Part shown: positions 13,211 to 60,592 of the stretch, piece by piece | Layout of the letters: every line of letters begins with the position of its first letter | Numbering within the stretch: the stretch's first letter is position 1 | Origin: Bacteroides sp. | Lineage (GTDB): Bacteria; Bacteroidota; Bacteroidia; Bacteroidales; Muribaculaceae | Assembly (NCBI GenBank): GCA_014801865.1 | Contig: JAAVDH010000044.1 | Coordinates: forward strand, 1-64,000 | Direction of reading: 5' to 3' | DNA length: 64,000 nucleotides | Translations under genes and position numbers: made by a program | The notes under the pieces: model-generated | What the model was told of the DNA's origin: nothing | The model's database searches: none | Seen by the model: only the letters and a program-made list of their open reading frames with translations

Positions 13211-14176
13211 ATGATCGAACGAATAATAATACTCGAACAGGCTGACCCCGTAAGTTTTTACGGGGTCAATAATGCCAATCTGCAGCTCATACGCAACCTA
13301 TTTCCCAAACTGCGTATGGCCGCGCGCGGATCTGTAATCAAGGTCATCGGCGATGAACAGGAAACTGCCGACTTTGAAAAAAAGATTCATGAGCTTGAAA
13401 ACTACTGCGCCAAGTATAACTCACTGAATGAAGACGCCATACTTGACGTCCTGCGCGGAGAGACACCAAAGGATGTCAAGTCCGACGGTGTCATCATATT
13501 CGGCATCAACGGCAAACCCATATCGGCACGCAACGCCAATCAGCAACTGATGGTGCAGTCGGTGCTCAACAATGACCTGACATTTGCACTCGGCCCCGCC
13601 GGTACAGGTAAAACCTACATCGCCATAGCCCTGGCTGTGAGAGCACTCAAAAACAAGGAAGTACGCAAGATAATACTTTCGCGTCCCGCAGTAGAGGCCG
13701 GAGAAAAACTCGGATTTCTCCCCGGCGACATGAAGGATAAGATCGATCCGTATCTGCAACCGCTCTACGATGCGCTTGAAGATATGATTCCCGCCGCAAA
13801 GCTTAAAGAGTACATGGAGAACAACACCATACAGATAGCTCCCCTGGCTTTCATGAGAGGACGCACGCTCAACGATGCCGTGATAGTGCTTGACGAGGCG
13901 CAGAATACCACCACGCACCAGATAAAGATGTTCCTCACACGTCTGGGCATGAACGCCAAGATGATAATCACGGGCGACGTGACGCAGATCGACCTCCCGC
14001 GCTCGGTGCCCTCGGGACTCATGCAGGCGCTGAAAGTACTTAAGGATGTGCCGGGCATCGGACGCATCGAATATGGCAAAAAGGACATCGTACGCCACCC
14101 CCTGGTGCAGCGTATCGTACAGGCCTACGAGAAATTTCAGCCCGAGGAAGGAAGCGACACTCCCGCTACCACATAA
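13211..14176 (+). CDS. PhoH family ATPase
   Basis: 321 aa; ALGPAGTGKTYIA, LSRPAVEAGEKLGFLPGD, VLDEAQNTT motifs. Confidence 0.95.
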   Translation: MIERIIILEQADPVSFYGVNNANLQLIRNLFPKLRMAARGSVIKVIGDEQETADFEKKIHELENYCAKYNSLNEDAILDVLRGETPKDVKSDGVIIFGINGKPISARNANQQLMVQSVLNNDLTFALGPAGTGKTYIAIALAVRALKNKEVRKIILSRPAVEAGEKLGFLPGDMKDKIDPYLQPLYDALEDMIPAAKLKEYMENNTIQIAPLAFMRGRTLNDAVIVLDEAQNTTTHQIKMFLTRLGMNAKMIITGDVTQIDLPRSVPSGLMQALKVLKDVPGIGRIEYGKKDIVRHPLVQRIVQAYEKFQPEEGSDTPATT

Positions 14177-58248: not shown

Positions 58249-58399
58249 CATCCCCCCTCTCTCCTCCCTTAAATAAGTTAATACTTGAAAGTACTGCGAA
58301 ATCTGTTTCTCCCCGCTCTCTGAAAGACACCCATCTGATTTCGAGTTCATTACAAGAAGATATTAGTATAGCTATAACCGTTTTAAACATCTTACAAAA

Positions 58400-58810
58400 A
58401 TGAAACTAAACTTGTTTGATAAGGTTTGTGGCTATATTAAATGCTATCTTGATAAGAGTGAGATAACACATGTTGGGGTTACATATACCCTCGTGGTGTC
58501 AACTATTTTTGTAATGTTTCCATGGGCGGATATTTTGAGATTTGTTCTGTATCCTTATGTGCCATTTGGGGTAACAAAAGATGATATCCTGGACGCCGTA
58601 TTATGTATACCGCCAATAATTGTAGTAATAGTCTGTTACTTTAGATGGATACGGCATGACAGATGGGAGAAGATAATGGAAGCACCCTGCTTTCATCGGA
58701 GAAGAGCCCCTTATATCGGACTTGCCATTCGTAATGGTGCCATGATGATATGTCTTCTATATCCTTATTTTCGCTATTGGCTGTTCGTTCACGTTTTTGG
58801 AATATATTAG
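58400..58810 (+). CDS. Small membrane protein, type A copy 1
   Basis: 136 aa, about 3-4 hydrophobic segments; RWEKIMEAPCFHRRRAPYIGLAIR; homologous to 59376-59795. Confidence 0.75.
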   Translation: MKLNLFDKVCGYIKCYLDKSEITHVGVTYTLVVSTIFVMFPWADILRFVLYPYVPFGVTKDDILDAVLCIPPIIVVIVCYFRWIRHDRWEKIMEAPCFHRRRAPYIGLAIRNGAMMICLLYPYFRYWLFVHVFGIY

Positions 58811-58834
58811 TTTGAATTATAATTATCTTTTGCA

Positions 58835-59269
58835 ATGTTAATCCTTAAATTCTTATTTAAAAAGATATGGAGTTACCAGTCAACAACCGGATGGAAGGAT
58901 GAGCCTCTATATACTTGCTTTAGAATCTATTGGGCAATATTCTTCTATTTTGGCGCTCCACTAATGCTCACTATACATTATTGGGTAAGAGGGCTGACGA
59001 AAGGATATGAAATGCCATTGATCATTACAGGTCCTACAGCTTTTGCTATTCCTCTACCATTTGCTTTGTTGGCATATTGGGTGTTCGTACGAAAGGGAAA
59101 GTATCGTGAACTGATAAAAGCGCCGGAAGAGTATAGTAAATCATCAAAATTCGTTGGATGGTGGTTTTATTGGGGAGGAGGTATTTTTACTTTCTTATGG
59201 TTAATTGTCTTTATTCCCAAAGTTTACCCTTATGCAGAGCCTTTGTTACGACAGATTTTCAAGCAATAG
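58835..59269 (+). CDS. Small membrane protein, type B copy 1
   Basis: 144 aa; RKGKYRELIKAPEEYSKSSKFVGWWFYWGGGIFT; homologous to 59811-60239. Confidence 0.75.
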   Translation: MLILKFLFKKIWSYQSTTGWKDEPLYTCFRIYWAIFFYFGAPLMLTIHYWVRGLTKGYEMPLIITGPTAFAIPLPFALLAYWVFVRKGKYRELIKAPEEYSKSSKFVGWWFYWGGGIFTFLWLIVFIPKVYPYAEPLLRQIFKQ

Positions 59270-59375
59270 TCTCTTTTGAGGAGAGGCCGCATAGGGCTGT
59301 ACTAAATAATTTATTACGAGTTACTTAAATAATGGACACATGGCACGTTTGCCAGAATAATTAAATCTATATAAT

Positions 59376-59795
59376 ATGAAACTATCGTGGTTTGATAAGA
59401 TATGTGGCTATCTTAGATGTGCTGACATTCGATATGGCTCTGCGGATGAATTCGTAGTTAACAATATGCTCGCTGCACTAACAATATTTATGATTTTCCC
59501 ATTCATTGATATAATTAAATATGTATTATACCCCTATGTACATAATTTCTTATCTAAGAATGAATTTGTGCATATAGTATTGTTTGCTCCACTGATTACT
59601 GTTTATATCATTAGTTATTTCACCTGGATCTTTCATGACAGGTATGAGAAAATAATGGAAGCCCCTTGCTTCCATACAAAGAAAGCGCCATATATCGGAC
59701 TTGCCATTCGGACAGTTCCATTAATGATTATACTTATATATCCTTGGATAAATGACTGGGTATTAATTCATGTATTCGGGATAGATAAAATATAA
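59376..59795 (+). CDS. Small membrane protein, type A copy 2
   Basis: 139 aa; RYEKIMEAPCFHTKKAPYIGLAIR. Confidence 0.75.
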   Translation: MKLSWFDKICGYLRCADIRYGSADEFVVNNMLAALTIFMIFPFIDIIKYVLYPYVHNFLSKNEFVHIVLFAPLITVYIISYFTWIFHDRYEKIMEAPCFHTKKAPYIGLAIRTVPLMIILIYPWINDWVLIHVFGIDKI

Positions 59796-59810
59796 TATAC
59801 ACTAATTCTA

Positions 59811-60239
59811 ATGTTGTTACTCAAGTTTTTATTCAAGAAGCTTTGGAGCTATCAGTCCACAACCGGATGGAAAAACGAGCCATTATATACCTGCTACAGA
59901 CTATATTGGACAGCTTTCTTCTATTTCTCAGCTCCCCTAATGCTTACGATTGATCTTTGGACTAAGGCATATACAGGGGATGGCCTACCCGATATAATTT
60001 TCGGACCTACTGCATATATCATTCCTCTACCATTTGCTTTAATTGCGTATTGGGTATTTGTACGAAAGGGAAAATATCGTGAACTGAAAAAAGCGCCGGA
60101 AGAGTACAGTAAATCATCAAAATTCGTTGGATGGTGGTTTTATTGGGGAGGAGGTATATTTACCGCTGTGTGGTTCTTTACGGTTGCTCTCAATGGCTTC
60201 CCTTATGCAGAGCCTTTGTTACGGCAGATTTTCAAGTAA
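59811..60239 (+). CDS. Small membrane protein, type B copy 2
   Basis: 142 aa; RKGKYRELKKAPEEYSKSSKFVGWWFYWGGGIFT. Confidence 0.75.
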   Translation: MLLLKFLFKKLWSYQSTTGWKNEPLYTCYRLYWTAFFYFSAPLMLTIDLWTKAYTGDGLPDIIFGPTAYIIPLPFALIAYWVFVRKGKYRELKKAPEEYSKSSKFVGWWFYWGGGIFTAVWFFTVALNGFPYAEPLLRQIFK

Positions 60240-60366
60240 TAGTCTGTGGGGAGAGGCCGCATAGGACTTGCCTTAAATAGTTTTTACGGCTTACTTCGAT
60301 AATGGACGCTTGGCAAGCTCGCCGGGATATTTCGCCTATGGGTTCGGAATAGTGGTGGATGAGTTA

Positions 60367-60397
60367 TTGCCGTTGTGAAGGATTATTGCTACCTTTG
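60367..60397 (+). promoter_or_regulatory. Bacteroidetes-type promoter for recJ-recQ
   Basis: ttg (60367-60369), N20, tacctttg (60390-60397). Confidence 0.7.
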
Positions 60398-60515
60398 TGG
60401 TTGGGTAATAGTGCAAGTCTTCACGACATCGCGCAGTTGGCGCCGATGACCGCAGCGAGCGGCATCACTCCCCTATCCTCTCGTCACCTCTCTATGCGCC
60501 TGATAATGCCATGTA

Positions 60516-60541
60516 TAGTTAGCTCATTTAGTTAGCTCATT
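60516..60541 (+). repeat. Perfect 13-bp tandem repeat in recJ leader
   Basis: tagttagctcatt x2. Confidence 0.9.
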
Positions 60542-60592
60542 GCCGTGTTGACCGCCCACCGCGACTTGAAATAAAAAAAAGAAACAACATAA

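Follow-up and report, generated by a model that had tools for sequence, protein, structure and literature searches.

The C-terminal regions of Rhs proteins are commonly toxins, with the immunity gene as the next gene. For channel-forming effectors, immunity is almost always conferred by a polytopic membrane protein (PMC12744356), and the ionophore toxins of CdiA pair with hydrophobic CdiI proteins (PMC11630599). Bfe1, a T6SS effector of Bacteroides fragilis 638R, kills when directed to the periplasm (PMC6692515). When 724 genomes of Bacteroides and Parabacteroides were surveyed, the gene for the immunity partner of Bfe1, bfi1, was found only beside bfe1 and was absent from immunity islands (PMC6692515). 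Bfe1 is probably the toxin now called Bte3; this identification was made by elimination, because 638R is listed with two effectors, one of which should be the VasX-like Bte2. In Staphylococcus aureus, stopping the extracellular toxin EsxX takes both ExiC and ExiD, a pair that is also found as an orphan in antitoxin islands (PMC12744356).

The window analysed here, a 64,000-nt stretch of DNA from a Bacteroides sp. of the Muribaculaceae, contains four ORFs in the order A-B-A-B between an msbA-like gene and recJ, the neighbours being taken from the ORF list (Table 1). The initial annotation had described two different small multi-TM protein genes duplicated as a pair together with a non-coding tail, and the locus bore this out. 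A1 and A2 are 51% identical at the protein level, and B1 and B2 are 76% identical. The two tail copies share 74% identity over 86 nt, and the tail repeat runs in register with that of the genes, the copies being spaced 970-976 nt apart. The island had also been called more AT-rich than its flanks; its GC content was indeed 0.34-0.39, whereas the msbA-like gene and recJ on either side had 0.53-0.58. The island may have been acquired from outside. An Rfam search of the tail and island gave no match, a tRNA search of the island found none, and the ORF translations from the msbA-like gene to recJ contained no ORF of note besides A and B. Between the array and recJ, TAGTTAGCTCATT is present as two perfect tandem copies (window 60516-60541). 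The best match of recJ is to a Paramuribaculum MAG (85% identity), followed by other Muribaculaceae, which points to a probable origin in this family. The msbA-recJ interval was rejected as an empty-site comparison: the adjacency is not conserved in the relatives examined, in which an MscS-like gene or others precede recJ, and none of them offered a clean empty site.

Table 1. Features of the A-B-A-B array in the window and of the related small TM proteins encoded on contig C35 of the same genome.
Feature	Coordinates	Strand	Description	Evidence
A1	58400-58810	+	136-aa predicted 3-TM inner-membrane protein; candidate A-type immunity protein	ORF, AF2, Bfi1-like profile
B1	58835-59269	+	144-aa candidate B-type immunity protein with charged VRKGKYRELIKAPEEY loop	ORF, AF2, Bfi1-like profile
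Unit 1 non-coding tail (GAGAGGCCGCATAGG...), duplicated	59277-59362	.		repeat D3
A2	59376-59795	+	139-aa paralogue of A1	ORF, Bfi1-like profile
B2	59811-60239	+	142-aa paralogue of B1	ORF, Bfi1-like profile
Unit 2 non-coding tail	60247-60332	.		repeat D3
AT-rich island	58249-60592	.	from the end of the msbA-like gene to the start of recJ	GC profile
Small TM proteins on C35			C, 136 aa; D, 127 aa; A3, homologue of A; B3, homologue of B	

The window copies are genuine coding paralogues, with a resemblance well beyond chance. The dN and dS values were 0.39 and about 2.8 for A1/A2, and 0.16 and 1.03 for B1/B2. With dN/dS at about 0.14-0.16 for A and B and third codon positions the most diverged, both pairs are under purifying selection, indicating that the A and B genes have been selectively kept. 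In the comparison of B1 with B2, synonymous sites were saturated in the first 60 codons and dS was 0.46 in the remainder. This contrast suggests later gene conversion between the B copies in the 3' part.

A layout common to A and B had been proposed from the sequence, and AlphaFold2 models of A1 and B1, run with the family alignment, showed matching predicted architectures. In A1 (pLDDT 90.9), helices were predicted at residues 5-20, 24-53, 60-84, 88-92 and 103-131. The helix order in B1 (pLDDT 87.8) was the same, with an N-terminal helix, a long TM1, TM2, a short charged-loop helix and TM3. Searches of solved structures with the window proteins, by sequence and by fold, returned nothing significant. 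The proposal that A and B share an ancestor fared differently according to the sequences used: when the homologues from contig C35 (described below) were included, profile-profile comparison aligned 125 columns with a score of 34.4, where 40 column shuffles reached at most 15.0, whereas the window pairs compared by themselves scored 19.4 against 21.4 for shuffles. The profiles, once the C35 homologues are added, and the matching predicted architecture thus support descent of A and B from a common ancestor. A profile built from A only matched B3 (1e-5) and D (9e-5), and also took up one unrelated 4-TM ORF at 2e-4. Since it matched B3 and D, a single superfamily seems to unite A, B and D; the C protein is less certain. 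Homologues of both A and B are encoded on C35, and this distribution indicates that the A/B split is older than the duplication of the pair.

Profile searches located the only other relatives of A and B in this genome on C35; weak matches at G000:C8 and C23 were rejected. The gene order there is rhs-C-B3-A3-D, with the array of small TM genes directly downstream of the Rhs gene. The encoded Rhs/YD-repeat protein (2029 aa; matches to RHS_repeat, DUF6443 and Rhs_assc_core) has a signal-peptide-like start, and its hydrophobic tail ends 191 residues past the core; the C-terminal domain is encoded at L009:12317-12889. Its last ~80 residues weakly resemble the end domain of other Bacteroidales Rhs proteins. 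The match to other tails was marginal, at E 0.01-0.14 and ranked just behind family members, the value of 0.01 being obtained with an eight-sequence toxin-tail profile; beside this marginal match, the C35 tail is placed by position and motif. Neither the Rhs protein nor its toxin had a match in the window. The gene just upstream of the Rhs gene (L009:5754-6806) encodes a 350-aa protein with a Por_Secre_tail match (3.8e-4) below the cut-off. A 202-bp, 97% direct repeat made up of the frdB 3' end and a terminator (L009:5448-5649 and 13797-13998, on C35 of G000) brackets rhs-C-B3, and A3-D lie beyond the second copy. The repeat resembles the footprint that recombination would leave on entry of the C35 toxin unit, and its position around rhs-C-B3 is a sign that such units are acquired when shared flanks recombine; immunity arrays may grow through successive insertion. 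The T9SS marker SprA was found in this genome, and the T6SS marker TssN was not detected in it (71% complete). Because the start of the C35 Rhs protein is signal-peptide-like, T9SS or surface display would be a more likely route for the C35 toxin than T6SS.

We then considered Rhs tails and their neighbours in other genomes. From the genus, 25 Rhs C-termini were parsed. Three had C35-type tails (C35, G118 and G226), all with small 3-TM neighbours; the family profile recognised no neighbour for the other 22. In G118, two 3-TM proteins are encoded in tandem downstream of the Rhs gene, and a third immunity-like gene (123 aa; L054:12301-12672) lies upstream of it. A profile made only of toxin tails, from four sequences, was used to search 384 genomes of the order and detected nine loci, spread over eight genomes other than this one, with G673 already in the profile. 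At every one of these loci, a small protein of 129-151 aa, mostly with three TM segments, was encoded downstream of the toxin. The N-terminal helix of these neighbours is aromatic, and most of them have a charged loop with K-x-(K/R)-Y. The toxin frame was broken or partial in G415 and G496. The Bfe1-like toxin locus of G499 carries several tandem immunity-like genes (L059:2-316, 959-1267, 1809-2213 and 2216-2623), partly truncated or chimeric, one of them fused to an unrelated coding sequence.

Several of these toxin tails matched NF053698 (Bfe1) in its C-terminal part, with E values of 4.6e-5, 0.0024, 0.0067 and 0.02, and nine toxin neighbours matched the Bfi1 immunity family model NF053699, with E values from 1e-18 to 1.6e-4; all of these matches lie below the curated cut-offs, the best neighbour reaching 67.5 bits (E 1e-18). 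Since the tails match the one model and the neighbours the other, two separate family models agree, by sequence similarity, on the identity of toxin and partner. One weak point is that the G226 and G415 neighbours, and C on C35, are placed more by position and layout than by sequence. The alignment of the toxin tails predicted a hydrophobic, GP-containing hairpin.

Pfam, NCBIfam and PADLOC gave nothing usable for A or B, in agreement with the initial annotation, which had recognised no family and suggested no function. A match of A1 to PF04834 (adenovirus E3 14.5 kDa; 0.004) was rejected, being below the cut-off, limited to a single member and a matter of TM composition. NF053699 gave no match at E<=10 to any of A1, B1, A2 and B2 and matched nothing else in their genome, and they do not belong to the curated Bfi1 family (NF053699, cut-off 100 bits). 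A Bfi1-like profile, built from the eight proteins of other genomes with the strongest Bfi1 likeness, was run against 1244 ORFs from the loci examined. It gave E values of 6e-8 for B1, 2e-6 for B2, 1.9e-5 for A2 and 9.5e-4 for A1, and all four ranked above every non-family ORF (best unrelated, 0.017). When shuffled sequences had served as the background in a previous run, B1, B2 and A1 came out much the same, with A2 falling among the shuffles. Profile-profile comparison of B with the Bfi1-like group aligned 123 columns (prob 96, E 6e-9, score 54; shuffle maximum 15), and in the reverse search the B profile matched Bfi1-like proteins. For A, the probability was 28-43% and the score 29, against 14 for shuffles. 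By their profile similarity to toxin-linked proteins that match NF053699, A and B are thus distant members of a wider Bfi1-type superfamily, reached through intermediates. The label "undescribed" used in the initial annotation holds as far as direct family membership goes; it does not hold for these distant relatives. Homologues of the window proteins stand immediately downstream of a toxin domain, as polymorphic-toxin immunity genes do, both on C35 and throughout the set found with the toxin-tail profile (9/9).

Occurrence was very patchy. Of 297 genomes from the same family, only the one analysed here carried B, and a search of 196 other genomes for relatives of A found none. A scan of the genome collection with the B alignment found no relative, nor did plasmid searches using B or a Bfi1-like relative as the query. 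Matches in G423 and G297 were rejected, one being an unlinked 4-TM ORF and the other a frame with seven stops.

Taken together, we think it quite probable that the array is an orphan immunity island, whose inner-membrane proteins would block Bfe1-type membrane toxins. Its genes stand without an adjacent toxin gene, and duplication of the A-B cassette as a unit, without a toxin, fits an orphan shield. A rival would deliver a Bfe1-like toxin to the cell envelope, where the hydrophobic, GP-containing C-terminal hairpin would insert in the inner membrane and cause depolarisation. A and B, as residents of the inner membrane, would bind the hairpin and stop its insertion or assembly. The killing by Bfe1 in the periplasm fits a toxin that is met by an inner-membrane guard. 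The depolarising action is deduced from the hydrophobic GP-turn hairpin and by analogy with similarly arranged systems (PMC11630599, PMC12744356); in the literature we found no demonstration of pore formation by this Bfe1-like toxin type. A and B were probably retained and duplicated jointly because the pair works together, and the second, diverged A-B copy would broaden the range of toxin variants blocked.

The joint duplication bears on a refinement that is compatible with the orphan-island explanation, in which A and B form an obligate hetero-oligomeric membrane immunity complex. We put this forward tentatively, as a possibility. The pair was duplicated along with its tail, and the staphylococcal ExiC and ExiD protect only jointly and travel together as orphans (PMC12744356). 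The C-B3 order on C35 would repeat that of the window if C is A-like, as a tree suggested (92/99), but the C-A grouping joins long branches and was flagged as unreliable. A single immunity gene at many homologous loci elsewhere also argues against an obligate pair. More doubtful is a fuller version, in which A and B would be the halves of such a complex and an independent counterpart of ExiCD in Bacteroidota, spreading as a toxin-free two-gene cassette and duplicated against several variants of Bfe1-like Rhs/T6SS toxins. The pair model would be the part of most interest to specialists.

The island might instead be a second immunity reservoir for the genome's own toxin, either the C35 Rhs toxin, whose locus includes the homologues A3 and B3, or one encoded in the missing 29%, the assembly being 70.8% complete, such that a cognate toxin could be absent from it. 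We regard this as unlikely, given that the C35 toxin already has its adjacent C, B3, A3, D array and that identity between the window proteins and those of C35 is just 43% for B and 32% for A; moreover, ionophoric CDI immunity is usually specific for the cognate toxin (PMC11630599). It is very improbable that A and B are envelope proteins with no immunity role (small transporter, stress or regulatory proteins) and that the toxin link is a multi-TM coincidence: TM-rich sequences do yield spurious profile matches, as with PF04834 and at L017, but shuffled and reversed controls and the 1244 real ORFs score far lower, the close homologues A3 and B3 lie within a toxin locus, and the restriction of B to a single genome of the family does not fit such a role.

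On the orphan-island explanation, the unannotated A/B family gains a probable function. The T6SS effector Bfe1 is also linked, by profile similarity, to a domain at the C-terminus of Rhs proteins from several Bacteroidales, which has its corresponding 3-TM immunity family. Two ideas become testable: that Bfe1-type toxins act through a helical hairpin that enters the inner membrane, and that orphan shields against them occur in Muribaculaceae, none having been found for bfi1 in the Bacteroides and Parabacteroides survey (PMC6692515). Immunity arrays and Rhs toxin/immunity pairs are kinds already known; what is new is the placing of the A/B family, the orphan Bfi1-type immunity genes and the tandem A-B cassette.

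Among known systems, the CdiI proteins of ionophoric CDI are likewise hydrophobic immunity proteins encoded right after a membrane-active toxin tail (PMC11630599), although the described CDI systems come from E. coli and relatives and are likened to ours by arrangement. The rAID/AID systems of gut Bacteroidales are likewise arrays of orphan immunity genes (PMC12247911). They differ in being recombinase-associated, with SUKH proteins as the studied members, whereas the window island encodes membrane proteins and, as judged from the ORF translations of its surroundings, has no associated recombinase gene. ExiC and ExiD, which act against the depolarising toxin EsxX, are likewise two different multi-TM proteins that may be toxin-borne or orphan (PMC12744356); they have six predicted TM helices each and belong to another phylum and to a T7SS. 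The likeness would be one of analogy only. Bfi1 resembles the window proteins through the intermediates that match NF053699. The window proteins have no direct NF053699 match, and they form a duplicated A-B pair with no toxin; the Bfe1-like domains found here stand at the ends of Rhs/YD-repeat proteins, whereas Bfe1 itself is a T6SS effector. The length is nevertheless the same, the layout is similar (an N-terminal aromatic helix, TMs, a K-x-(K/R)-Y charged loop and a TM), and relatives of the window proteins, like Bfi1, adjoin Bfe1-like C-terminal domains.
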